A stretch of 64,000 nt of DNA from Saccharofermentans sp. (GCA_024403675.1 JAKSRH010000004.1:1-64000), one strand, 5' to 3'; counted from the stretch's first letter, positions 8,728-21,718 are shown. Notes: generated by a model not told the origin, from the letters alone. Translations and numbers: made by a program.

Positions 8728-10512
8728 ATGGAGATTAGGAATTTATCAGGATATAGTTCATTGGTTGTGGACTATTCTATAATTAGAGAGTTTGGGGGGA
8801 CTTCTCTTTTTAAAGAGTTCCTTGACCTTATTGTATCTAATAATAAGGCTGTTTATGTTAGTAAAGCTTTTAAGCTCCTACATTATTGTGTTATCCACCA
8901 GGCTGATAAGAAGTATTCATACGTAGCAGAAGCTATGCGTGATTTTTGTGCTGTTTTGCTTCCTAATAAGCAGCTTCATTCAGTTCAGTCTACAGACACA
9001 GTTGAATTCCTTGGCAAGGTAAGTGATATTGAGAATTCATGTCTTATTGTTACTGAGCACTCTATTTTTACTAAGCGTTTGTTAGAGCTTAAGCCAGATT
9101 ATAAGAAAGATATTTGCGTAATTGGACAGGATGGGTTCGAGATTTATCATGGCGTTGAAGATCTTGTTAGTAATTTCCCAGTTCCAGTTATTAGTCCTCT
9201 TGCATCTGTAAATAAGTATCTTGATGCACCAGTTTATTGTAATGTCGGTGATGTTGTTGTTACTGGACGTAAGCAGAATATTACTCTTACTAAGAGAATA
9301 AGTAGTGGTGCAGAGGGAATGGTATTTAATACTGATTCTCCTAAGGTAGTTGCTAAGATTTACCATAAGGGTGTTATTACACCTCTTCGTTGGAGTAAGT
9401 TGAAGCAGATGGTTTCATTGGGTATCAATAGTATTGGTATTTGCTGGCCTCAGGATCTTATTTACTATAGAGATGTGCCTGTAGGTTATACAATGAATCT
9501 TGGTAAGGGTCGTACTCTTGGTAATGTATTTGATGGTCCAGATGCTATTACAGAAAGCTTCCCTGAGTGGACTAGAATCGATGTTGTTAATACTCTTGTA
9601 GATCTTATCGAGAAGTATCTCTATCTTCATATGCACGACATTATTGCTGGTGATATCCAGATGAAGAATGCACTTCTTTATTCTTCTAATTCTGTTTATC
9701 TTATCGATATGGATAGTGCTCAGGTTGGTAATTTGCCTTGCCCTGTTGGTACAGAAGAGTTTACAGACCCTGAGCTTTGGGGTAAGAACTTTGCAGGTTT
9801 CTTACGTCAGTTGAAGGATGAGGATTATTCTATTGCAATGCTTGTATTCTCTATTCTTTTCTGTGGATTACATCCATATGCTACTAGAATGGGTGCTGAT
9901 ACACTTCGTGAAGAGATTCTAGAGAAGAATTTCCCATATTTGCTCGATAATTCTTCTGATGAACATATTCCGAAGGGTGGATATAATTACATTTGGGAGT
10001 ATTTACCAGCTAAGATTAGAGAGATGCTTTATGGTGTCTTTAAAGAAGGTAAGAAATACGAGGCTCTTGTCTGGTATGAGGCTGTTGTAGCTTATAAGGA
10101 TGCATTGTCTGCACATCAGATTGAAGATGAAGAAGCATACAAGGTTTTCCCTAAGATGAATTACAAGAAGGCAGAGACTGTAGTTAATACTGGTGCTCCT
10201 GAAGGTCTTAAGAATCCTACATTTAAGACAAAGTTTGCAGGTATTAATAGTAGCGCTGTGTATCAGCCTACACCATTAGTTAATAATGCTCCAAAAGCAA
10301 CAAACACTAATAGTGCTACTACAAATAATACTTCTAGTAGCCCATCGTCTGCATTTACAGGATATGGTTCAGGTGCAAGTCCATTTGTACCAAAGGGTGC
10401 TTCCACAACACCTACAAATAGACCTAATAATACACCTACAAATACACCACCACCTGCTAGTGAAGATAAGGGCGGTATTTTGAATAAATTTAAGAAAGGC
10501 CTTTTCGGCTAA
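8728..10512 (+). CDS. Ser/Thr-type protein kinase of a TerY/YegI-like triad, with possible PIN-like N-terminus
   Basis: The protein has 594 residues. Residues about 1-150 form an alpha/beta domain with a PIN-like pattern: acidic strand end VVDYSII, then SDIENSCLIVTEHSIFTKRLLEL. The fold assignment is an inference. The kinase domain spans about 185-440: Gly-rich loop SSGAEGMVF, Lys210 in VAKIYHK, catalytic AGDIQMKNALL with Asp309, and metal-binding LIDMDSAQ with Asp327 and Asp329 where most kinases have DFG. This form is typical of YegI-like kinases found with vWA and PP2C partners. The C-terminal 110 residues are low-complexity Asn/Thr/Pro/Ser, ending in a basic KFKKGLFG. It is the first gene of a four-gene unit, and the vWA gene follows after 18 bases. 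The ATG has no ribosome site; see the promoter entry. Confidence 0.75.
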   Translation: MEIRNLSGYSSLVVDYSIIREFGGTSLFKEFLDLIVSNNKAVYVSKAFKLLHYCVIHQADKKYSYVAEAMRDFCAVLLPNKQLHSVQSTDTVEFLGKVSDIENSCLIVTEHSIFTKRLLELKPDYKKDICVIGQDGFEIYHGVEDLVSNFPVPVISPLASVNKYLDAPVYCNVGDVVVTGRKQNITLTKRISSGAEGMVFNTDSPKVVAKIYHKGVITPLRWSKLKQMVSLGINSIGICWPQDLIYYRDVPVGYTMNLGKGRTLGNVFDGPDAITESFPEWTRIDVVNTLVDLIEKYLYLHMHDIIAGDIQMKNALLYSSNSVYLIDMDSAQVGNLPCPVGTEEFTDPELWGKNFAGFLRQLKDEDYSIAMLVFSILFCGLHPYATRMGADTLREEILEKNFPYLLDNSSDEHIPKGGYNYIWEYLPAKIREMLYGVFKEGKKYEALVWYEAVVAYKDALSAHQIEDEEAYKVFPKMNYKKAETVVNTGAPEGLKNPTFKTKFAGINSSAVYQPTPLVNNAPKATNTNSATTNNTSSSPSSAFTGYGSGASPFVPKGASTTPTNRPNNTPTNTPPPASEDKGGILNKFKKGLFG

Positions 10513-10530
10513 ACTTGGAGGATAGATATA

Positions 10531-11253
10531 ATGGCTGAAGCGTTTAGTGCATCTGATTTTGGTAATAGTACAAAGAGAAGATTACCTATTTGTTTTTGTC
10601 TTGATACATCAGGATCTATGTTAGGAAATCCTATTCAGCAGCTTAACATGGGACTTTCTAACTTTGTTGCTTCCATTAAGGCTAATGATGATACAAAGTC
10701 TGCTACAGATATTGCCATTGTTACTTTTGGTTCTTCTGTAGAGATTGTTATGCCATTTGGAAAGATTAAGGATGAGGGTATTCCAGAAATTTCTGCATCT
10801 ACTACTCTTACTCCTATTGGTGAAGGTATCCTTACAGCTCTTGAGCTTCTTAATGCTCGTAAGGAAGGATATAAGGATCTTGGTATTAAGTACTATCAGC
10901 CATGGCTTGTAGTAATTACAGATGGTGCTCCACAGGGCCCTAATGCGATGGCTAATATGAATCTTGCTATTGAGGCATGTAATGAGCTTGAGAAGAATGA
11001 TAAGCTTGTTATTTTTAATATCGGCGTAGGTAATAGCGTTGATTTCGATATTTTGAAGAAGCTTTCACTTAAGAGAGAAGAGCCAATTTCTGTATCATCA
11101 TCTGACTTTGGTAAGCTCTTTGAGTTCCTTGGTTCTTCAAGTTCTTCTGTAGTATCTTCTGGAATGAGTGATGATGCTCTTTATAACATTAATACTGAGC
11201 CAGAAGGTGAGTCTGTTGATGTTGACGACTTCTTTAAGTTCATGGAAGAGTGA
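10531..11253 (+). CDS. TerY-like von Willebrand A domain protein
   Basis: This is a 240-residue cytosolic vWA protein. The metal-ion-dependent adhesion site is complete: DTSGS at residues 25-29, a Thr in STTLTPIGEG, and the downstream Asp in VVITDGAPQG. TerY/YegL proteins of this kind occur in triads with a PP2C phosphatase and a kinase and are thought to act as metal-dependent scaffolds or as phosphorylation targets in stress signalling. Here the kinase is immediately upstream and the phosphatase immediately downstream. The C-terminus is Ser-rich (SSSSSVVSS) and then acidic (DVDDFFKFMEE), a possible target region for the kinase, which is an inference. The ribosome site is TTGGAGGATAG ahead of the ATG. 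Confidence 0.85.
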   Translation: MAEAFSASDFGNSTKRRLPICFCLDTSGSMLGNPIQQLNMGLSNFVASIKANDDTKSATDIAIVTFGSSVEIVMPFGKIKDEGIPEISASTTLTPIGEGILTALELLNARKEGYKDLGIKYYQPWLVVITDGAPQGPNAMANMNLAIEACNELEKNDKLVIFNIGVGNSVDFDILKKLSLKREEPISVSSSDFGKLFEFLGSSSSSVVSSGMSDDALYNINTEPEGESVDVDDFFKFMEE

Positions 11254-11258
11254 TACTT

Positions 11259-12380
11259 ATGGCAAATAAGATTGCAGCAGTTACATTAACCGGTCAAAAG
11301 CATAAGAACCGTGATATTCCATGTGAAGATTCTTCTCTCGCTATTTCTAAGAATGGCGTAGATGTTGTTGTTGTCGCAGATGGTGCTGGTAGTAAGCAGT
11401 ATACTCATGCGAAGTATGGTTCTAAAGCTGCGACAGAAGCTATTGCTGAGCTTATTACTGAGCATTTTGATGCTATTTATAATGAGAATAGAGAAGCTGC
11501 TATTAAGACTATTGTTATTGCAGCAGTTCACGTTAAGTTTGCAGCACTTATTGAAGAGTTTAAGCTTGATTCTATTGAGAGACTTTCATGTACACTTCTT
11601 TTTGTGGCAGTTAAGGATAGACGTGTTATCGTAGGTCATTTGGGTGACGGACTTATTGTTAGAGTATCATCTTCAGGTGTAAGTCCACTTACAATGCCTC
11701 AGAATGATTTGGCTGGACATACATATTTCGTTACTGCTAATCATGCTGCAGATTATATGAGAGTAGTTAAGACAACTACTGATGATATTCATGCCATTGC
11801 TCTTATGTCTGATGGTGTTCAGGATTCAGTTTATGATGAGAATTCTGGTCTTGTTAAGCCGGTTGTTGCACGTATGGTCGAGACATTAAAGAATGGCAGA
11901 GAAGAAGCAGAGAAAGAAATTTCTGATATTGTTGAAAAATATATCGTAGGTGGATCTAATAATAGTGATGATTCATCGTTCGGTGTTCTTTATATTGAGA
12001 ATACAGTAGCACCTAATTCACAGGGACTTCCTGGTAATGCTGATGCTTTCCCAAGAGGAACAGAGACTTTTAAGGATTTACAGATGCTTATGGTCGAAGA
12101 TGTTAAGAAAGCTAAGAAAATTATTTTAGATGCTGCTAATAATGAAGCACCTTCTGAGTCAAAGGGAAATGAAGACGAAGATGAAGTTAAGAGTGCTGAA
12201 GAAAGGGTAGATACAAAAGTATCTGAGGAGCCAGTTAATGAATCAGCAAAAGATACTGATGCTGATACAAAGGCTCCAGATAGTAAGTCAGAAAGTAAAC
12301 CAAAGAATACTTTGGCTATGATTATGACTGCTATTGCTGTAATTGAGTTAATTGTAATCGTTGTGTTGGCTATTAAGTGA
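11259..12380 (+). CDS. PP2C-type protein phosphatase with C-terminal membrane anchor
   Basis: This is a metal-dependent Ser/Thr phosphatase of 373 residues and the likely antagonist of the kinase two genes upstream. Conserved PP2C metal ligands appear as VADGAGSKQY, GHLGDGL, LMSDGVQDSV and SNNSDDSSFGV. Residues about 270-350 are an acidic, low-complexity linker, and the last 23 residues are a single hydrophobic segment ending in a Lys. This makes it a tail-anchored protein with the catalytic domain in the cytoplasm. A GTG at 11250 is in frame, but GGAAG at 11244-11248 is far better placed for the ATG at 11259. The vWA stop codon lies between the two candidate starts, so the genes are tightly coupled. 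Confidence 0.85.
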   Translation: MANKIAAVTLTGQKHKNRDIPCEDSSLAISKNGVDVVVVADGAGSKQYTHAKYGSKAATEAIAELITEHFDAIYNENREAAIKTIVIAAVHVKFAALIEEFKLDSIERLSCTLLFVAVKDRRVIVGHLGDGLIVRVSSSGVSPLTMPQNDLAGHTYFVTANHAADYMRVVKTTTDDIHAIALMSDGVQDSVYDENSGLVKPVVARMVETLKNGREEAEKEISDIVEKYIVGGSNNSDDSSFGVLYIENTVAPNSQGLPGNADAFPRGTETFKDLQMLMVEDVKKAKKIILDAANNEAPSESKGNEDEDEVKSAEERVDTKVSEEPVNESAKDTDADTKAPDSKSESKPKNTLAMIMTAIAVIELIVIVVLAIK

Positions 12381-12406
12381 TTAATGGTTCCTGGGGAGGA
12401 AATAAA

Positions 12407-13399
12407 ATGAACGAGAGAAAGTATGAAATACTTCCAGGTACAAAGGTACCTGATTTGAAGTCGATTATTATGGCGGCTTCTGATTTTTCTGTTTCAGGCG
12501 TTGAAGACGTTGAAGTTAAGGGAAAGAATATTTCTAATTCAAATAGTTCCAGTGGACCAGTTAAGGTTACTGGTGCAGCTGTGGATGAGCTCAATAAGCT
12601 TGGTAATCAGGTTGCTGAAGAAGAAGAGAGAGCTGCTGAAGAGAGCCGTCGTAAGATGGAAGAAATTAAGAAACAGGTTTATACTCCTGACTTAAGTGAT
12701 CTTAAGAAGGCTGCAGAAGAGCAGATGACACCTGAAAAGCGTGAAGCAATTGAGAAAGAGCAGGAAGCCCTCGAGGCTGCAAGAGCAGAGGAAGCAGCAA
12801 AGCAGAAAGCTAGAGAAGAGCGTCGTATGCAGCAGCAGAAAGTTCTTGAAGAAAGCCTTGCTCGTAAAGCTGCTGAAGCAGAAGCTAAGGCTGCTAAGGA
12901 AGCTGAGGAAGAAGCTGCAAGACTTCAGGCTGAAAAGGAAGAAAAGAAACGTAAGGCTAGAGAAGAAGCTGCAGCTAGAGCTGAAGCTCGTAAGAATGAG
13001 AAGCCTGCACAGGATGAAGATTATAAGGCTTGGGTAAGAGCTAAGAAGGAAGCTGCTATGGCTGAGGCTGCAGAAAAAGAAGCTGCAACAAAGGCTTCGG
13101 AAGTTGTAGAAGACGTTGCACCTGTAGTTCAGGAAGTTGTTGAACAGCCTAAGCAGGAAGAGCCTGAAGATGAATACAAGGCATGGGTAAGAGCTAAGAA
13201 AGAAGCTGCTATGGCCGAAGCTGCAGAAAAGGCTGCTAAGGAAGCTGCAAAAGCTGCTGCAAAGGATTCTAAGCCAGAGGCAAATGTTAAACCTGATTCA
13301 AAGCCAGATCCAAAGCCAACACCTGCTGGTTCCGCTCCAATTGTTCCTGAAAGTGATGAGGAGCAGCAGACACTTGATGACTTTAGCGAGTTCCTTTAA
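12407..13399 (+). CDS. Ala/Glu/Lys-rich coiled-coil protein, fourth gene of the kinase/vWA/PP2C unit
   Basis: The protein has 330 residues and I do not recognise a family. The first 70 residues are mixed (EILPGTKVPDLKSIIMAAS) and may fold. Residues about 75-205 and 265-295 are long charged helices of Ala, Glu, Lys and Arg, strongly coiled-coil-like. A block beginning YKAWVRAKKEAAMAEA occurs twice, at about residues 207 and 255, separated by an acidic Val/Pro stretch. The tail is Pro/Lys-rich and ends with an acidic DDFSEFL motif similar in character to the end of the vWA protein. The start at 12407 follows GGGGAGGAAATAAA; an earlier in-frame GTG at 12377 lacks a site. A rho-independent terminator follows, so this is the last gene of the operon. 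It may be a scaffold or substrate of the kinase. Confidence 0.7.
   Translation: MNERKYEILPGTKVPDLKSIIMAASDFSVSGVEDVEVKGKNISNSNSSSGPVKVTGAAVDELNKLGNQVAEEEERAAEESRRKMEEIKKQVYTPDLSDLKKAAEEQMTPEKREAIEKEQEALEAARAEEAAKQKAREERRMQQQKVLEESLARKAAEAEAKAAKEAEEEAARLQAEKEEKKRKAREEAAARAEARKNEKPAQDEDYKAWVRAKKEAAMAEAAEKEAATKASEVVEDVAPVVQEVVEQPKQEEPEDEYKAWVRAKKEAAMAEAAEKAAKEAAKAAAKDSKPEANVKPDSKPDPKPTPAGSAPIVPESDEEQQTLDDFSEFL
13021..13233 (+). repeat. Imperfect direct repeat within the coiled-coil gene
   Basis: Two copies of about 65 bases, at about 13021-13084 and 13169-13233, encode nearly identical helices beginning YKAWVRAKKEAAMAEA. The copies differ mostly at third codon positions, so the protein sequence appears to be kept by selection after an internal duplication. 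Confidence 0.8.
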
Positions 13400-13425: not shown

Positions 13426-13462
13426 ACGACTGTCTGATTTTTTATTAGACAGTCGTTTATTA
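13426..13462 (+). terminator. Rho-independent terminator of the kinase/vWA/PP2C operon
   Basis: A perfect 10-base stem, ACGACTGTCT (13426-13435) with AGACAGTCGT (13447-13456), encloses an 11-base T-rich loop and is followed by TTATTATT. It lies 27 bases after the stop codon of the coiled-coil gene and separates this operon from the XrtG locus. Confidence 0.8.
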
Positions 13463-13528
13463 TTCGTCAAATGTGAACAAAAATGTTAATTCTCATTTAT
13501 TTTTAACATATCTGTATTATTACAGGAG

Positions 13529-13550: not shown

Positions 13551-13979
13551 ATGAATAAGTATATTGAATTAACATTTCGATTTAATTCGTCACATAGTAA
13601 TGTCGGAGATAAGTTGGAAAGACATTTCCATACATTCTCTATGACTCTTACAATTGATTATGTTACTAAGGAAATCGAGAATACGGTTGTTCGATATATA
13701 AATGAATTTCTGAATCAATTTAATGATAAGTATCTTGATGAATTGGATTATTTTAAAGGTGTTTATCCAAGTATAGAGACAATTGGCGATTGCTTTTTTG
13801 ATTCTATACAGCATTTACTTAGTAAAATGAATGTTAACCTATTGCAGTTAAGCATTTCGGATAGTCCTTTAAAAGCTTATCTTGTTGGTGACAGACTTAT
13901 GCTTCCTAATCTTAACGATAATATTAGCAATAAGAATTTTGCACTTATGATGAAGTTCTTGGAGCGAAGTGGAAACTAA
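13551..13979 (+). CDS. 6-pyruvoyl-tetrahydropterin synthase-related protein, XrtG locus (copy 1)
   Basis: This is a 142-residue protein of the T-fold PTPS/QueD family. The three zinc-binding His are kept, in FNSSHS (His15) and HFH (His25, His27). The catalytic Cys normally just before the HxH motif and the rest of the QueD active-site signature are not visible. The reaction is therefore unlikely to be that of queuosine or biopterin synthesis. PTPS-related proteins are a recognised companion of XrtG-type exosortases in Firmicutes. It opens the seven-gene XrtG locus, with the substrate gene 11 bases downstream. The ATG at 13551 is chosen because GGGTGAGG lies just upstream and the family N-terminus (KYIELTFRF) begins there. 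An upstream in-frame ATG at 13473 would add residues without homology to copy 2. Confidence 0.75.
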   Translation: MNKYIELTFRFNSSHSNVGDKLERHFHTFSMTLTIDYVTKEIENTVVRYINEFLNQFNDKYLDELDYFKGVYPSIETIGDCFFDSIQHLLSKMNVNLLQLSISDSPLKAYLVGDRLMLPNLNDNISNKNFALMMKFLERSGN

Positions 13980-13990
13980 GGAGGCAATGT

Positions 13991-14725
13991 ATGAAGAGAT
14001 TTATAAATAAGTTATTTGTTGCAACTATTACATCTGCCATGGTTTTTTCTTCTTTGACAGGAATTGTTTTAGCTGATAATGGTGCTAATCCATCATCTTC
14101 AATTGTAATTGATGGTTTGTATGATGATTGGAATAATGTACCAGTTCAGGAGATTACATATACAGGATACAATGGTACAGATATTCATGTTGGTCAGATT
14201 TATACTGATGGTGAGTATATGTATGTACACTTTAAGGTAAGTGATTTGTATTCATCAGAAATGCCTTTAGGACAGTTTTATTTAACTGTTAATGGTGTTA
14301 CACAGGAAATGCATATTTTCCCAGATAATAATTTCTGGGGTAGTGTTAACCAGGGTAATCCAGGATCTTTTAATAACTTATCAGTAGGCGTAAGAGGTCA
14401 GGCAACTAATTGGCAACCAACTACTTTGGCTGGTGAGTGCATCCTTAATTGTTATAATGCACCTTGGTATTCTGGAAATGATAAAAAGGGATCAGAATTT
14501 GAGTTTAAGGTGAAATTAGAAGATGTGGCTAATGCATATGGTACACATCCTGAGTCCATGGGCACAATAACAATTACCAATACATCTTTGGGTACAGAAG
14601 GCGTATCTATTGCTGGCACTCCTACTGGTCCAATTATTGGTGTTGCAATAGGCTCTATTATTGCTATGGGCGGCGCTTATGTCGCATTAAAGAGGAAGAA
14701 TACGGAAACTTTGGAAAAGTCATAA
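13991..14725 (+). CDS. Firmicu-CTERM-type surface protein, likely substrate of XrtG
   Basis: The protein has 244 residues. It has an N-terminal signal peptide (basic MKRFINK, hydrophobic core, cleavage near LADN at about 29). A mature domain follows, beginning VIDGLYDDWNNVPVQEITYTG, which resembles the opening of CBM9/DOMON-like sugar-binding folds, an inference from the DGxxDDW pattern. The C-terminus has the three-part layout of a sorting signal: short motif GTPTGP, a hydrophobic segment of about 20 residues, and a basic KRKN tail. This matches the Firmicu-CTERM signal, known as a rare, usually single protein per genome coded beside XrtG. The next gene downstream is XrtG. The start is set by AAGGAGGCAATGT. 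Confidence 0.8.
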   Translation: MKRFINKLFVATITSAMVFSSLTGIVLADNGANPSSSIVIDGLYDDWNNVPVQEITYTGYNGTDIHVGQIYTDGEYMYVHFKVSDLYSSEMPLGQFYLTVNGVTQEMHIFPDNNFWGSVNQGNPGSFNNLSVGVRGQATNWQPTTLAGECILNCYNAPWYSGNDKKGSEFEFKVKLEDVANAYGTHPESMGTITITNTSLGTEGVSIAGTPTGPIIGVAIGSIIAMGGAYVALKRKNTETLEKS

Positions 14726-14744
14726 GATTTCCGTAGATATTAGT

Positions 14745-15335
14745 ATGAGAATAATACTTATATTATTTATATTATTGTGGATTTATATTCTTTCTGTGCT
14801 ATATAGATCCAAGAATAGTTTTTTCTATTATCTAGTTGGAAGCGTTGGTTTATTTACTTTTTCAATGATAATTATAGAGCCTTTTGCTGTGCCTATTTTA
14901 CAGAAAAATGTAGCTGCGGTAGCAGGTGTGATAGGTGATTTAACAGGAATTTATTCGTCTTATTTTAATTCTGGAATTCTTTTTATTTCTCATAATGCCA
15001 CGAATCTATCTTTGTTTATTGATTTTGAGTGTTCTGGTGTTATTGAAATAATTGCGTTCATTTCTTTGTTAGCATTCTTTGGTATTTACGATATATATGA
15101 GCGTGTGATTATAGGATTTGTAGGAACTATTATGATATTTGTCTTTAATGTTTTAAGGATATTTATTATTTGTATTTCTGTATATATAGGTGGTATGAAT
15201 ATCTATTTTGTGGCACATACCATCATTGGTAGATTGTTCTTTTATGTGTGCACAGTATTTTTATATTTTTATGTGTTTACTAAGTCTCAAATTATAAGAC
15301 AAAAGTTAGGAGGTATTAAGCATGACAATACTTAA
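14745..15335 (+). CDS. xrtG: Exosortase family protein XrtG
   Basis: This is a 196-residue integral membrane protein with about six hydrophobic segments. The three catalytic residues of the exosortase/archaeosortase family are visible and in order: Cys96 in FECSG, Arg138 in FNVLRI, and His158 in VAHTIIGRLFFY. Exosortases are transpeptidases that cut C-terminal sorting signals and transfer the protein to a cell-surface acceptor. XrtG is the Gram-positive form; its acceptor is not known. It sits directly after its presumed substrate and overlaps the glycosyltransferase gene by 14 bases. No good ribosome site is seen before the ATG, so translation may depend on the substrate gene upstream. The gene is very AT-rich compared with housekeeping genes in the window. 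Confidence 0.88.
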   Translation: MRIILILFILLWIYILSVLYRSKNSFFYYLVGSVGLFTFSMIIIEPFAVPILQKNVAAVAGVIGDLTGIYSSYFNSGILFISHNATNLSLFIDFECSGVIEIIAFISLLAFFGIYDIYERVIIGFVGTIMIFVFNVLRIFIICISVYIGGMNIYFVAHTIIGRLFFYVCTVFLYFYVFTKSQIIRQKLGGIKHDNT

Positions 15336-16704
15336 TCACTTCTTTCATAGCGAAATTATATTTTGGGCAGCTTGGATAATCATACCTGTGATAATGGAAA
15401 TTATTCCTACTATAGGTAACTTTTTTATATTGCTTTATAAAAGAACTGTTGTAAAAAACAAAACTGAAAATCTAGCTACTCCAGAGATAACAGTTATTAT
15501 TCCTATTTATAATTCTGCCGACACATTAAGAAACTGCATAAAGTCCGTATATGACTGTAATTATCCTAATGATAAGTTGATGGTTCTTCTTGCAAATAAC
15601 GAGACTAAGGATAATAGCTTTGAAGTATTTAAAGAATGCCAGTCGGAATTTAGTGACTTAAGAATGAGTTGGATTAACGCACAGCAGGGTAAGTCTAAAG
15701 CTTTAAATCTTGCTCTTTTTAACGCTGAAGGCGTATACGTAATTCATATAGATAGTGATGGTGTTCTAGAAAAGTCTGCTTTATATAATATGATTCGTTT
15801 CTTTGAGACACATCCTGATATTCATTGCGTCACAGGTACAGTACTAACTAACCCTGAATTAATCGACGATACAAAAGGATTCTTCAAACGCTTATTTCGT
15901 AAAATGGAGTTTGGAGAATATTGTCAGGCCTTTTTATCAGGTCGTAATTTTCAGTCTGAATTAAATAGTGTATTTACAGTTTCTGGTGCTTTTTCTGGTT
16001 TTAGAAGATCCGCTATTATGAAGACTGAACTTTATAACTTCGAGACTTTATGTGAAGATACTCACGTAACATTTCAAATTAGAGATAACTTGAAAAAGAG
16101 AGTTGCACTTTGTAGTGATGCGATATTTTTTGTAGATCCTATTGAAGACGTAAACAGATTGTATGTTCAAAGACAGAGATGGCAAATAGGTGAGCTTGAA
16201 GTATTGCATATGTTTAGAGATGAAAAAGCTATGAACATAGGAAGTCATTACTTAAGGGATTTTGTAGTAAGACTTGTTGTGTTTGATCATACTTTTGCAT
16301 TTCCTAGAATGATTTGGTATTTCGCATTACTTGCCTTGGCTTTGATTAACTATCCTTTAAGACTGATTGTAATTTCAGTTATTTTGCTTTTTATCCTTTA
16401 TAGTATTGCAAATTTGCTTTTGCATATTTGTATTACTATGTTTCTTAAGGACTTTAAGGAATTGCGAAGATATTACTTTAGAAAGTGGTATTTAATATTC
16501 CTTCTTCCAATATTTAATTTTATTACGTTCTGGTTCAGATTTGCAGGAATTATTAACTCTATATATCAGACGGAAAGAGTGTGGACTACACGTAATTTTA
16601 CACAGGAAAGAAACGATTTTATCGAAGTAATCAGGCATGATTTTTCAATATGTATGAATTTTATAAATAGAATAAGAATGCATGTTAACGATTCAGAATC
16701 TTAG
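15322..16704 (+). CDS. Membrane glycosyltransferase family 2, XrtG-associated
   Basis: This is a 460-residue processive-type GT2 enzyme. One hydrophobic segment (15-35) precedes the GT-A catalytic domain: TVIIPIYNSADTL, the nucleotide-sugar site IHIDSDGVL, the acceptor-side LCEDTHVTF, and VQRQRWQIGE, a Q-x-x-R-W motif typical of cellulose and hyaluronan synthase relatives. Three or four transmembrane segments follow (about 315-400). Enzymes of this build polymerise and export a glycan across the membrane. The tight linkage to XrtG, including a 14-base overlap, suggests it makes the glycan to which the substrate is attached or which it accompanies; this is an inference. The ribosome site AGGAGGT lies inside the xrtG 3' end. 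Confidence 0.85.
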   Translation: MTILNHFFHSEIIFWAAWIIIPVIMEIIPTIGNFFILLYKRTVVKNKTENLATPEITVIIPIYNSADTLRNCIKSVYDCNYPNDKLMVLLANNETKDNSFEVFKECQSEFSDLRMSWINAQQGKSKALNLALFNAEGVYVIHIDSDGVLEKSALYNMIRFFETHPDIHCVTGTVLTNPELIDDTKGFFKRLFRKMEFGEYCQAFLSGRNFQSELNSVFTVSGAFSGFRRSAIMKTELYNFETLCEDTHVTFQIRDNLKKRVALCSDAIFFVDPIEDVNRLYVQRQRWQIGELEVLHMFRDEKAMNIGSHYLRDFVVRLVVFDHTFAFPRMIWYFALLALALINYPLRLIVISVILLFILYSIANLLLHICITMFLKDFKELRRYYFRKWYLIFLLPIFNFITFWFRFAGIINSIYQTERVWTTRNFTQERNDFIEVIRHDFSICMNFINRIRMHVNDSES

Positions 16705-16730
16705 TTAGTAGTAGTTATTGAGGGTTAAAG

Positions 16731-17834
16731 ATGGCAAGAAATAGAAAAAGAAACATGACTAGTGAAAACCGTATGGGAACGGTTTTTATTGGTGTAATTA
16801 TATTTATTATATTGGTTTCTTACTTTATCTATTATGAGATGAATTCTAATTTGGAGAGAGTAAAAAACTTGTATATTAATGAGCAAACTCATACCGTTAG
16901 TTTGCTAAGAAATTATGCTATGGAAAAAGAATCTGAAGGTATAGTTGGTCAAGACTTGGTGCAGTATCTTCCAAGTGTTTATGACGCTAGTGGTGATAAT
17001 TTCCTAGTATATGAGGAGAATGGTGAAATTCTTTTTGCCAAAACTATTATGGCTACTGATTCTCTCGGTCAGCTTCGTAATTCTGAATTATATTGGGAAG
17101 AACTTAATAAGCAGGAACTTGTTATTTCATCTGAGAGTTGGGATAGAGAAGACGTTCATTGCACCATTTATATAGTTACTTTGGAGCAGAGTATTTATCA
17201 GAAGACTAACCTTAACAAACATTCACAATTTGTATTTATGGCGACAGTATTGTTATGTGTTGTGCTGTTCAGTTTATTAATTACTTACGTCGGTGTTCTT
17301 AATAGAACTGAGCGTAGTTTGGCGGATACTTCTACAAAGCTTAAGGAGAGTAATAAGAATATAGAAAATTATATTCAAATGAATCAAGACACTCATATTG
17401 TTGATGATGAAAAGTTTGAAACAAAGTATAGGAGTATGAATCAGTTTTATGATCCTTCAGTACTTCGTAACCTATTATCCAAATCTAATGAGGGCGATTT
17501 AAAACCAGTTTATCTAGTAATTATTAATTTTAAAATGTTTTCTAGATACTATTCATTAGGTGAAATATCTGATTTTGCTGCTGTAATAATGAGTGCTATT
17601 AAGTATAGAGAACTTCTTTTCGAACTTCGTAAAGGAACATTTGGCGTTGCTATTTATCACAGCTCAGATTCAGAGGCTAGACTTAGAGCAGAATCTTTTA
17701 TTAGTCTTCTTAATAAACATAATAAGGAAAAGAAGATTTTCGAAGGTTTTACATATGACATTGAGGTATTAGGTGCAGGTGAAGATGCTCCTATAGAAGA
17801 TTTCGAGAAAGTAATGGAGAAAGTTGAGGGTTAA
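16731..17834 (+). CDS. Membrane sensor protein with degenerate GGDEF-like domain, XrtG locus
   Basis: The protein has 367 residues. Two transmembrane segments (about 16-38 and 165-190) flank an extracytoplasmic sensor-like region with a dCache-like size (DNFLVYEENGEILFAKT). A coiled linker follows, then a C-terminal domain of about 120 residues with the strand order of GGDEF proteins (VYLVIINFKMFSRYY, later FELRKGTFGVAIYHS). The GGDEF signature itself is replaced by RKGTFG, so it cannot be an active diguanylate cyclase as read. It may bind a nucleotide or act structurally to control the neighbouring glycosyltransferase. It lies between the GT2 gene and the second PTPS-like gene, 26 and 3 bases away. 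Family assignment is from pattern only. Confidence 0.55.
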   Translation: MARNRKRNMTSENRMGTVFIGVIIFIILVSYFIYYEMNSNLERVKNLYINEQTHTVSLLRNYAMEKESEGIVGQDLVQYLPSVYDASGDNFLVYEENGEILFAKTIMATDSLGQLRNSELYWEELNKQELVISSESWDREDVHCTIYIVTLEQSIYQKTNLNKHSQFVFMATVLLCVVLFSLLITYVGVLNRTERSLADTSTKLKESNKNIENYIQMNQDTHIVDDEKFETKYRSMNQFYDPSVLRNLLSKSNEGDLKPVYLVIINFKMFSRYYSLGEISDFAAVIMSAIKYRELLFELRKGTFGVAIYHSSDSEARLRAESFISLLNKHNKEKKIFEGFTYDIEVLGAGEDAPIEDFEKVMEKVEG

Positions 17835-17837
17835 GAG

Positions 17838-18284
17838 ATGCCATATAGACAGTATAAATTTAAGTTTTATCTCAATTCTAGTCACTCTATTATTAAAGAT
17901 GGCGTGCTTCGTGATAAGCACCCTCATACTTGGGAGATTTCACTACACATAGTTAATATTAGAAAAGAGTTTGTTCCTTTTGGAAAAATTGAGAAAAGTG
18001 TAGAGGAGTATTTTAGCTTATACCAGAATAAGTACCTTAATGAGATTAAGCCTTTTGACGTAGTAAATCCTACTTTGGAAAACATGGCTGATTATTTTAA
18101 GGATGGGTTATCTAAGATACTAAATGATCTTGGATGGGTGTTAATTCTTCTTGAAATGAGTGAGACCCCGTCGCGTACATATGTAATAAGTCTTTTGGAT
18201 GACGTGGAGCTATCAGAAGACCAAACTATTAATGCATTTACAGATTTATTTTTGGAAAGACTAAAGAAGGGTAATAATGGATAA
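17838..18284 (+). CDS. 6-pyruvoyl-tetrahydropterin synthase-related protein, XrtG locus (copy 2)
   Basis: This is a 148-residue paralogue of the protein at 13551-13979. Zinc ligands appear as YLNSSHS (His16) and HPHTW (His28, His30). Both copies share the order NSSHS, a charged insertion, HxHT, then a late ISDSPLKAY / MSETPSRTY strand. The catalytic Cys of true PTPS/QueD enzymes is again not seen in its usual place. The last 8 bases overlap the start of the large membrane protein, so the two are translationally coupled. The two copies bracket the substrate, exosortase, glycosyltransferase and sensor genes, and may form a hetero-oligomer since PTPS-fold proteins assemble as hexamers; this is an inference. 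Confidence 0.75.
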   Translation: MPYRQYKFKFYLNSSHSIIKDGVLRDKHPHTWEISLHIVNIRKEFVPFGKIEKSVEEYFSLYQNKYLNEIKPFDVVNPTLENMADYFKDGLSKILNDLGWVLILLEMSETPSRTYVISLLDDVELSEDQTINAFTDLFLERLKKGNNG

Positions 18285-20721
18285 AAACAATAACAAATTG
18301 TTTAGCATGCGTAATCTTAAGTGGTATATAGCACCACTTATTATGGCCGTGTGCGTTTTTATTTATTTAACTGATAGAGGTCATATTCCTTCCGGTTCTG
18401 ATGTGTGGGGCCATGTTTATAAAGCGGATTATCTTTATAAGCAAGTGAAGTCTGGAAAAATATATCCGTTATTTGATATGTACTGGTATAACGGAATGGA
18501 GACCTTCCGTTATTGGGGACCACTTTCTTATTTTTACTACATAATTAGCTTTTTCATCGCAGGTGGCAATATAAATGTGGCATATAGAATTTTTGTCGCA
18601 TCTGTTTTCTTTTTTGGTGGCATACCATGGGTGATGCTTGGTATAAAAACTAATAAGAAAGCACTTGGTTCTATTATTGGCGCCATGTGGTTTATGATGC
18701 CTGATAATGTGCACATATTAATAGCTTTTGGTAATGTGCCTCAGATTTTTTCCACAGTATTAATTCCATATTTAATTTTGTTTATATGGATTTACACACG
18801 TGACAAAAACAAAAAAGCAGCAATAGGACTTGTGGTTATGATGGCGTTATTAACCATTACGCACCTTATGATTACTGCTATTGTTGGTGTATCTACTTTT
18901 GTTTTCCTATTGATTGATTCCATCTGGACCAAAGAGTATGTAACTAAAATCAAAGTCCTGATATACATGGTTTTAGGTATTGTATGTATGGGTATATGGA
19001 TGATACCAGCAGTTACAGGTGGAGTTATAGGAGCTTCATCTTCATCTACTACTGATGGCGGTGCTATTTTTGTTAGTGAACTATCTATATCTCTTAATCC
19101 AATTACTAGATTTATATACGGATATACCTATTTTTATATTGGATTGGCGTTAATAATTGTATGTGTATTTGCACTTATTGCTTCTGATTCTAAGTATAAG
19201 GCAGGATTTGTATTTTTGCCTTTGATTGTAATTCTTTCAACACCAGATGCATTTGAATTAATAGTAAAGCTCCCACTTGGTGGTCTTTTCTGGATGGAAA
19301 GATTTTTGCCTATAGCGTATGCATATTTTCTTATGTCAATTTTTGAATGGAAGCATATTAAAAATAAATATCTTGGAATTATAGTTGCTCTTATTCTTAT
19401 TGATATAGTACCTTTTGGTTCTTTTGAGTTTAATCAGCATGTATATCAAGATGATTGTTATTACGACACACAGATGGTAAATAAGCACACTATTAAGCGT
19501 TCGAGCGTATTAGATTTAAGTAGCTACGGTCCTTATATGTCTTATGCAATTCCTGATAGTGACAAACTTTATACTTTTGGATGGGCTTGGCAGGGCGCTA
19601 CTACTGCGGATAACATCATGCTTGTAAATGATGCATTAGAAAATGAACACTATAATTATGTGTTTGATCGTTGCCTAGAACTAGGTGATGATACCGTATT
19701 AATTAGAAAGAGTGCTATCCCACCATATGCTTGGGGTAAAGTGTTTGATGCGGCAATTCATTGTAATTATGGGTTAGTAGACGAAAGTGAGACTGCATAT
19801 GTGTTCCGCCTTAATAGTTTGCCAGAGGATTACGACGGCTTTTTTGGAACAATAGCGGACTATCGTGGAATATCAATTGGTTATTATGCAGCTACCATGA
19901 CTACTGCGTATCCGTCTTTTATTTTGGGAGATAGTATTTATATTGATGATTACACAGTGGAAGAATTGACTAAGTATGACACAGTCTTTTTGACTGGCTT
20001 TGAATACAATGATAAAGATTCAGCAGAGGATATCGTCAATCAAGTCGCTAATAGTGGCACTCGTGTAATTATTGATGCTTCCCATATGCCTACAGATCCT
20101 CGTAATAGACAGGAGTACTTTATGGGTGTTCTGGCATCAGATGTAAACTTTAGTTATAGTTATCCTTTATTGTCTGTTAATGGTACTACAATTAATCCTA
20201 TGGATTTTTCTTCAGATAATGCGAACTTTAAAACCAAATATATAAGCGGCGTTGATAATGAGCTTGGTACATTTGTATTAGGTAATAAAACACTATGTTT
20301 CCTAGGAACCAATAATACTAATGAAAATGTATATTTCCTTGGATTAAACATTATGTATCAAGCTGTTGATGTGAATGACCAGGGCTTGTTTATGCTTCTT
20401 GATGACTTGTTACTAATAGGTCATGATGAATTGCCTAAGCGTGAAATAGTTCCAATTGATGTTACATATGATTCAGAAGGATTAAAAATAACATCTTCCA
20501 AAGACAACGTAAATACAGCTATATCTTTTTCAGATGTATTTGCGAATGATAACGGTAATAAGCTAAAGTCTCAGTTTAACTTGCTAGTTGTAGATGAAGG
20601 TACAACTAATATTACTTATAAATATTCTGATTTTAGCCTAGGGTTAGTAGTTAGCTGTGTCGGAATCGTCGCAGCCGTAGTACTAATCTATATTGATAAA
20701 AGAAGAAGTATTAGTAATTAA
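18277..20721 (+). CDS. Large PTPS_related (GT-C-like) integral membrane protein, XrtG locus
   Basis: The protein has 814 residues. About eleven transmembrane segments fill residues 15-375, followed by an extracytoplasmic domain of about 400 residues and a final transmembrane helix near the C-terminus (residues 787-805). The N-terminal signature with GSDVWGHVYKADYLYKQ and YWGPLSYFYY marks the PTPS_related membrane family, whose layout resembles YfhO and other GT-C glycosyltransferases that use lipid-linked sugars. Despite the family name it has no PTPS fold. It closes the XrtG locus. Its stop codon overlaps that of the convergent mraY gene by two bases, with no terminator between. Its likely role is assembly or transfer of a surface glycan. 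Confidence 0.75.
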   Translation: MDKNNNKLFSMRNLKWYIAPLIMAVCVFIYLTDRGHIPSGSDVWGHVYKADYLYKQVKSGKIYPLFDMYWYNGMETFRYWGPLSYFYYIISFFIAGGNINVAYRIFVASVFFFGGIPWVMLGIKTNKKALGSIIGAMWFMMPDNVHILIAFGNVPQIFSTVLIPYLILFIWIYTRDKNKKAAIGLVVMMALLTITHLMITAIVGVSTFVFLLIDSIWTKEYVTKIKVLIYMVLGIVCMGIWMIPAVTGGVIGASSSSTTDGGAIFVSELSISLNPITRFIYGYTYFYIGLALIIVCVFALIASDSKYKAGFVFLPLIVILSTPDAFELIVKLPLGGLFWMERFLPIAYAYFLMSIFEWKHIKNKYLGIIVALILIDIVPFGSFEFNQHVYQDDCYYDTQMVNKHTIKRSSVLDLSSYGPYMSYAIPDSDKLYTFGWAWQGATTADNIMLVNDALENEHYNYVFDRCLELGDDTVLIRKSAIPPYAWGKVFDAAIHCNYGLVDESETAYVFRLNSLPEDYDGFFGTIADYRGISIGYYAATMTTAYPSFILGDSIYIDDYTVEELTKYDTVFLTGFEYNDKDSAEDIVNQVANSGTRVIIDASHMPTDPRNRQEYFMGVLASDVNFSYSYPLLSVNGTTINPMDFSSDNANFKTKYISGVDNELGTFVLGNKTLCFLGTNNTNENVYFLGLNIMYQAVDVNDQGLFMLLDDLLLIGHDELPKREIVPIDVTYDSEGLKITSSKDNVNTAISFSDVFANDNGNKLKSQFNLLVVDEGTTNITYKYSDFSLGLVVSCVGIVAAVVLIYIDKRRSISN

Positions 20722-21683
20722 AGGAAAGCAGCTACGAGAGCGATATAAAGCACATCAATAAAAAGTGCACATCCGATAATTACACCCCAAGTCATAGGAA
20801 CAGAGAAACCAATTCTTTTCTTAAGGTGGTCATGAATAGGTGTAGTTACGTTCTTGAGGATAATAATCTTTTTATGTGTAAGACGACCGATAGTAATCTT
20901 TAAGATGGAAAGACCGCCATCAATAAGGAATGGAAGTCCAACGATAAGGTAAGCAAAAGGAATGCCCATGTACATTGCATAAAAAGCAATAAAGAAACCA
21001 ATTGCACGAGATCCTGCGTCACCCATGAGCATTTTGCTTGGGAAGTGATTGAACCATAGATAAGGAATAAGTACTGCAACAAGAATAAGACCAGAAACAG
21101 CCTTTGTGCTATCAAATCCATTTACCATGGAACCAGTGATTGTAAGTGTAATTATAGTAAATACTGAAAGTGTTCCGGAAAGACCATCAACACCGTCAGT
21201 AGCGTTAGTGGCATTAATGCTAACGATAAAAAGAATAGCGGCGAGAATAGCGTAGATTACGGAAGGAATCTCAAAAGAAGCACCTCCGAGTGAAATGGAA
21301 ACCTCACTTCCATAACAAGCAACAAAGACAATAGCGCCAACAATAGCGATACCGAAGTCAAGTGCGCCCTTGATGTACTCGCCCCAAGCTGCAGCTGATC
21401 TGTCGTCAAGGAAACCACATATCATGGAAGCTACTACAAGGAGCATGCTTACGATAAATCCCCAGGAGTGCTCACCAGCAATAAGGGCAACAATTGCAAA
21501 TACCAAAACGAAATAAAAACCAACACCAGTTGGCTTTCCGATATTTACCTCAGAACCAGCAGCAAACTTACGGCCTCTATCGTGCCCCAAAAGTTTACCT
21601 CCGAAAGGCATAAACTTAAGTGCGGCAAAAGTACCAGCAGCTGCAATAATCATGAAAATAGCTATATATAATGCGTCAGGCAT
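20718..21683 (-). CDS. mraY: Phospho-N-acetylmuramoyl-pentapeptide-transferase
   Basis: This 321-residue membrane enzyme transfers phospho-MurNAc-pentapeptide to undecaprenyl phosphate to form lipid I. Family motifs are all present: GFLDDR (the catalytic Asp pair), NATNATDGVDGLSG, MGDAGSRAIG and TPIHDHLKK (the His motif specific to MraY, against WecA-type enzymes). About ten transmembrane segments are visible. The start is the ATG at 21683, with GAGG six bases upstream; an in-frame TTG at 21689 has no room for a ribosome site. It stands alone on the minus strand outside any division/cell-wall cluster, divergent from argS. Its 3' end meets the XrtG locus tail to tail. Whether another mraY exists elsewhere cannot be told. 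Confidence 0.88.
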   Translation of the reverse strand: MPDALYIAIFMIIAAAGTFAALKFMPFGGKLLGHDRGRKFAAGSEVNIGKPTGVGFYFVLVFAIVALIAGEHSWGFIVSMLLVVASMICGFLDDRSAAAWGEYIKGALDFGIAIVGAIVFVACYGSEVSISLGGASFEIPSVIYAILAAILFIVSINATNATDGVDGLSGTLSVFTIITLTITGSMVNGFDSTKAVSGLILVAVLIPYLWFNHFPSKMLMGDAGSRAIGFFIAFYAMYMGIPFAYLIVGLPFLIDGGLSILKITIGRLTHKKIIILKNVTTPIHDHLKKRIGFSVPMTWGVIIGCALFIDVLYIALVAAFL

Positions 21684-21718
21684 AATCAACCTCGTGTAAT
21701 ATTAATATTTATAAATCT

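Follow-up and report, generated by a model that had tools for sequence, protein, structure and literature searches.

A complete XrtG exosortase operon with a probable surface-glycan synthase, a single CBM9-like substrate and a putative pseudo-enzyme control module

The window analysed here, a stretch of 64,000 nucleotides from Saccharofermentans sp., a clostridial bacterium of rumen type, almost certainly carries a genuine, complete XrtG operon of a catalogued but almost unstudied kind (Table 1). This operon probably makes a surface sugar polymer, beside which the exosortase would fix a single protein with a sugar-binding fold. That the whole works as a signal-gated glycan synthase, with a lectin-like protein anchored by XrtG, we consider an even bet. 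With the CBM9-like fold of the substrate, a module of pseudo-GGDEF and PTPS proteins, and a series of gene fusions, what was a row of neighbouring genes can be described as a definite machine that is open to test.

Table 1. Features of the XrtG operon and its upstream boundary; positions are counted from the first letter of the window.
Feature	Position	Strand	Basis or remark
Intrinsic terminator-like hairpin	13426..13456	+	13-pair stem, T-rich tail; between upstream gene (end 13399) and operon
PTPS1, PTPS-fold protein	13551..13979	+	PF01242 30.3 bits (over cut-off); TIGR03112 65.7 bits (cut-off 69.35)
Firmicu-CTERM substrate	13991..14725	+	TIGR04145 125 bits (cut-off 50); AF2 model; CBM9 fold and profile matches
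XrtG exosortase	14745..15335	+	TIGR03110 189.7 bits (cut-off 102.75); invariant residues
Processive-type membrane GT2, ~4 TM	15322..16704	+	TIGR03111 613.6 bits (cut-off 363.95); DSD, ED and QRQRW motifs
Bitopic sensor, degenerate GGDEF (residues 237-367)	16731..17834	+	AF2 pLDDT 89.7; GGDEF structures Z ~13; RKGTFG motif
PTPS2, second PTPS pseudo-enzyme	17838..18284	+	TIGR03112 143.9 bits (cut-off 69.35)
Giant membrane protein (PF10131), probably a GT-C glycosyltransferase, ~9 TM and a large soluble region	18277..20721	+	PF10131 502.8 bits (cut-off 26.4)

The original prediction described seven tightly packed genes, and all seven open reading frames are present on the plus strand between 13551 and 20721, with gaps under 30 bases or overlaps, as it had described (11 nt, 19 nt, a 14-nt overlap, 26 nt, 3 nt and an 8-nt overlap). 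The first gene indeed starts at the ATG at 13551; a longer reading frame with a GTG start at 13473 shows no homology upstream of residue ~29-33. When the proteins were searched with NCBIfam profiles, XrtG, the GT2 enzyme, the Firmicu-CTERM protein and the second PTPS protein scored over the curated cut-offs. All four families of the system (TIGR03110, TIGR03111, TIGR03112 and TIGR04145) are present, the locus is complete, and the gene order is that of most relatives. XrtG is the Gram-positive branch of the exosortases. Besides its own family model, the XrtG protein matches the superfamily model TIGR04178 (46.6 bits, cut-off 23), and its TIGR03111 and TIGR03112 partners are encoded by adjacent genes. 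All 81 homologues retain each of the three residues proposed as its active site, Cys96, Arg138 and His158, which are located in membrane helices; the D-x-E-C-x-G-x-x-E motif around the active-site Cys is likewise invariant in this set.

We assembled 80 further loci from named public genomes and sorted their genes by profiles grown from the window proteins. Over the 81 loci, every operon gene (394/394) is encoded on the same strand as XrtG and, of the 378 junctions, 362 measure no more than 60 nt (median -4 nt): linkage in the XrtG operon is far beyond chance. Of 115 same-family genomes, 29 contain XrtG, and the genomes with Firmicu-CTERM are exactly the same 29. In 28 of them TIGR03111 exceeds its cut-off; in the remaining genome, G460, it is split between contigs.

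The distribution also bears on the origin of the operon. Five genomes of the same genus (G260, G427, G422, G433 and G432), none among the 29 XrtG-positive ones, have the gene that precedes the operon directly adjoining the convergent MraY-like gene that follows it here. Since these flanking genes are neighbours where XrtG is absent, the operon is a discrete insertion that takes up the ~7.3 kb between 13399 and 20718, and is most simply explained by horizontal acquisition as a unit. In a quick GT2 tree, the window and locus L031 belong to a group of 17 rows (support 97) that come mostly from Lachnospiraceae, and the same-genus locus L108 is in the other half of the tree. Genomes of this genus carry two XrtG lineages, with substrate scores of ~115-125 and 50-68 bits, which suggests at least two acquisitions.

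Neither flank appears to belong to the system. The MraY-like gene (20718-21689) is absent near XrtG in the other 80 loci and adjoins argS in related genomes that lack XrtG. The kinase, VWA and PP2C genes upstream are absent near XrtG elsewhere, and the terminator-like hairpin stands between them and the operon. Taken by itself, the region 8728-13399 looks like a phosphorylation module of the TerY type, with kinase-like, VWA-like, PP2C and coiled-coil genes; in several genomes of this genus, the PP2C and coiled-coil ones adjoin the pair formed by the MraY-like gene and argS. Neither the window nor any of 13 related loci yielded a riboswitch, for instance of the c-di-GMP type, at Rfam gathering scores, and a promoter scan returned sites no more numerous than in shuffled sequence.

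The Firmicu-CTERM protein is built of a signal peptide, one CBM9-like domain (residues ~37-207), an AGTPTGP motif, a transmembrane helix and a KRK tail, in agreement with the tripartite C-terminus that had been described. It had also been called the single adjacent substrate, and this holds genome-wide, the assembly (89% complete) containing one Firmicu-CTERM match and one XrtG. The C-terminal motif (G, T/A/S, S/P, T/S, G, P/A), followed by a helix and basic residues, occurs in 71 of 78 collected substrates, and nearly all of the 78 have IDGxxDDW near the start of the domain. A domain search of the same set found a single copy in 32 proteins, a pair in 43 and three copies in 2; one protein gave no match. 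Where a genome yields two Firmicu-CTERM matches, these share one reading frame; the rule is therefore one substrate protein per genome, with at least one domain copy.

Three comparisons liken this domain to carbohydrate-binding module family 9 (CBM9). Firstly, in a Foldseek search with the AlphaFold (AF2) model (pLDDT 85.1), the top matches were two CBM9 entries and a carbohydrate-binding protein of Bacteroides, and a third CBM9 entry stood at rank 6. Secondly, VIA-align 2 aligned the model with CBM9 structures over 139-146 residues at Z 7.2-7.8 and rmsd 3.7-5.7, against an immunoglobulin background of 5.8; common beta-sandwich arrangements also score below Z 8 in VIA-align, and the structural match alone is suggestive. 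Thirdly, hhalign matched the substrate profile to CBM9 domains of the same class (78%, E 1.7e-5, score 40.7), while none of 60 column shuffles scored above 26.2 and reversal of the profile gave 14.6; the invariant columns G, W, Y and E of the CBM9 set correspond to those of the substrate set. The domain resembles CBM9 (PF06452) in its predicted fold and has the IDGxxDxxW motif and the Y and E landmarks in common with it. Unlike members of that family, it has no Pfam CBM9 match, either in the window substrate or in 30 relatives; Pfam recognises nothing in the domain, and a Pfam CBM9 search of the organism's own genome gave no match. Because the likeness in fold and profile is suggestive and a Pfam match is lacking, we call the domain CBM9-like and not a CBM9 member. 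A lectin-like substrate is well supported as a predicted fold and as a hypothesis. Among the loci collected, this domain is confined to Firmicu-CTERM proteins and one substrate-XrtG fusion. In that fusion, a single open reading frame (L089:9290-10579) runs from a signal peptide through a CBM9-like domain and an AGTPTGP motif straight into XrtG; it comes from a single metagenome-assembled genome, and an assembly error is possible.

The GT2 enzyme had been predicted to be processive, and it is indeed of the processive type: it matches TIGR03111, and D144 S145 D146, E245 D246 and Q283 R284 Q285 R286 W287 are conserved in 64 homologues. The closest characterised resemblance is to PgaC/IcaA, with a TIGR03937 score of 127.2 bits that lies well under the PNAG synthase cut-off of 422.3. 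The description of the last protein as a GT-C-like giant membrane protein found indirect support: the window protein matches PF10131 only, and what favours GT-C is its context together with a PMT_2 match below its cut-off in one relative (E 0.0029). We regard it as a probable GT-C type glycosyltransferase. Related operons contain GT2 + GtrA + GT-C sets, and their extra genes encode DPM1-like GT2 with GtrA, GT2-GtrA fusions, YfhO and GT2-sulfatase fusions. By analogy with GtrA/GtrB/GT-C systems, which are the basis for reading the polymer as decorated outside the cell, these added proteins suggest extracytoplasmic decoration of the glycan. The XrtG-associated GT2 is fused to a sulfatase-superfamily (PF00884) domain in L052:10572-13472 and L063:10572-13448, and GT2 reading frames of ~950-990 aa in several other loci may share this architecture. 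YfhO-family membrane proteins (PF09586) lie directly after the sensor in L051:13181-15826 and directly after the GT2 in L077:12002-14557.

The same genes could serve mainly to glycosylate protein, the GT2 and GT-C enzymes modifying the Firmicu-CTERM protein and XrtG then releasing or anchoring the glycoprotein. Each genome has one substrate beside its own transferases, a long spacer of low complexity and high Ser/Thr/Pro content (up to 41%) is present in many related substrates, and the GtrA/DPM-like GT2 and GT-C sets resemble polyprenyl-phosphate-sugar pathways. The window substrate, however, is without such a spacer (~21% S/T/P overall), and in its QRQRW motif and its arrangement in the membrane the conserved GT2 is like the processive polysaccharide synthases. 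We judge protein glycosylation unlikely to be the main activity.

A second alternative concerns the exosortase reaction. We infer that the Firmicu-CTERM protein is cut by XrtG and is joined to a glycan or guides it; against this, no gene for a lipid or amine acceptor is conspicuous. XrtG might instead only cleave and release its substrate, as a soluble or transient factor of glycan assembly that is never covalently anchored. In favour of release, the operon has no conserved gene for acceptor synthesis; against it, work on the archaeosortase, a distant relative, indicates that substrates are attached to lipid (PMC7157517). Release without anchoring seems to us improbable.

The product of 16731-17834 had been described as a sensor-like membrane protein. 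The AF2 model shows such a layout: a transmembrane helix, an extracytoplasmic domain, a second transmembrane helix and a coiled coil, with an alpha-beta domain at the C-terminus. That description was incomplete: the output end of the protein is a degenerate GGDEF domain, and in close relatives a PTPS domain takes its place. All 50 matches listed by VIA-align for the C-terminal domain are GGDEF-containing structures (Z up to 13.6), with 129-132 residues aligned at ~3 A in most, and PF00990 is matched by 7 of 34 sensor relatives (best 1.1e-22). The window protein has RKGTFG in place of RxGGDEF, and none of its relatives has an intact GG(D/E)EF motif at the aligned position; with its active-site motif lost, the protein was rejected as an active diguanylate cyclase. 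Signalling by c-di-GMP is probably present in the organism, as its genome holds 16 other GGDEF matches. One Desulfosporosinus homologue of the sensor (L105:15353-17197), encoded inside an XrtG operon, combines GGDEF and HD_5 domains and has an SGSEF motif.

Two PTPS-like proteins had been foreseen. Both were found, PTPS1 falling just under the TIGR03112 cut-off. We compared their residues with the E. coli QueD sequence, matched to QueD chains such as 4ntm. Among 101 PTPS domains, each of the three zinc His ligands is kept in 97 and Glu109 in 91. The catalytic Cys is absent from the family, its position being occupied by L, K, Q or R, and the Asp69-His70 dyad is lost, with D69 replaced by Q in 80 of the 101 domains and H70 by N, D or G. 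Neither protein, having lost these motifs, was retained as an active PTPS enzyme. That the PTPS and GGDEF genes encode active enzymes of pterin metabolism and c-di-GMP synthesis is very improbable, since PF01242 scores over its cut-off and retained zinc histidines and Glu109 have to be set against replacement of the catalytic Cys and the Asp-His dyad across the PTPS family and a sensor family in which no member has GG(D/E)EF in place.

Fusions of the PTPS domain are the most informative new point of the analysis. In nine loci (L037, L039, L040, L043, L048, L055, L061, L071 and L089), the sensor is fused to a PTPS domain in place of GGDEF, and in 19 loci a PTPS domain forms the N-terminus of the PF10131 protein. 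In Clostridium acetobutylicum, CA_C2581 is annotated as one gene for a PTPS-related membrane protein; the two parts have evidently been annotated together already. As the PTPS fold is fused both to the sensor and to the membrane transferase, gene fusion argues for a physical role in control or scaffolding. A control module of GGDEF and PTPS pseudo-enzymes is well supported as a set of predicted folds and as a hypothesis.

We propose the following scheme. The membrane GT2 would polymerise and extrude a surface glycan, which the PF10131 protein would decorate on the outside from polyprenyl-linked sugars. The Firmicu-CTERM protein would be exported by Sec and held by its C-terminal helix, and XrtG, with Cys96 as the nucleophile, would process it near the G[TSA][SP][TS]GP motif. 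The CBM9-like domain would then sit on, or be covalently joined to, the outer face at the glycan exit, where it could retain or organise the emerging glycan. In the cytoplasm, the sensor with its degenerate GGDEF domain and both PTPS pseudo-enzymes with their zinc sites would make up a module for control or scaffolding, through which a signal from outside reaches the glycosyltransferases. More tentatively, all of these may be parts of one membrane machine: the pseudo-GGDEF sensor and the two zinc-binding PTPS pseudo-enzymes would serve as a relay to the glycosyltransferases, by allostery or as a scaffold, and the exosortase would attach a dedicated protein of CBM9 fold to the glycan as it is being made. 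If true, this would be a Gram-positive, signal-gated coupling of polysaccharide synthesis to display of the cell's own lectin.

The locus agrees with the known exosortase G system in its four families, its gene order and its one dedicated substrate; nothing in it is disqualifying, PTPS1 being slightly under the TIGR03112 cut-off. The original prediction knew of no experimental work on such systems, which is nearly right: in the open literature searched, the sole paper that uses the term Firmicu-CTERM reports transcripts of an XrtG system that are higher in certain strains of Lactiplantibacillus plantarum (PMC12854382). That system likewise comprises a Firmicu-CTERM protein, XrtG and associated glycosyltransferases; the passage that gives its four genes mentions neither a GGDEF sensor nor PTPS genes. 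An annotation table for Levilactobacillus brevis includes an exosortase-G-system-associated glycosyltransferase (PMC8951740). Biochemical work on the substrate, acceptor or glycan of XrtG was not found in the open literature searched, and the wider literature may differ. XrtG relatives occur in engineerable organisms, namely L. plantarum, with its reported system, and C. acetobutylicum, by the annotation of CA_C2581.

Among more distant relatives, the Gram-negative EpsH/XrtA system with its PEP-CTERM substrates shares the exosortase fold, the tripartite C-terminal signal and the association with exopolysaccharide genes. It serves many substrates per genome and uses a PEP motif (PMC12188702), whereas here one substrate carries a GTSTGP-like motif; exosortase substrates of other bacteria stabilise exopolysaccharide at the cell surface (PMC12188702). 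Archaeosortase A of Haloferax volcanii belongs to the same superfamily as XrtG and has a Cys active site; its substrates are lipid-anchored with the involvement of PssA/PssD (PMC7157517), whereas the XrtG operon here has no such genes.
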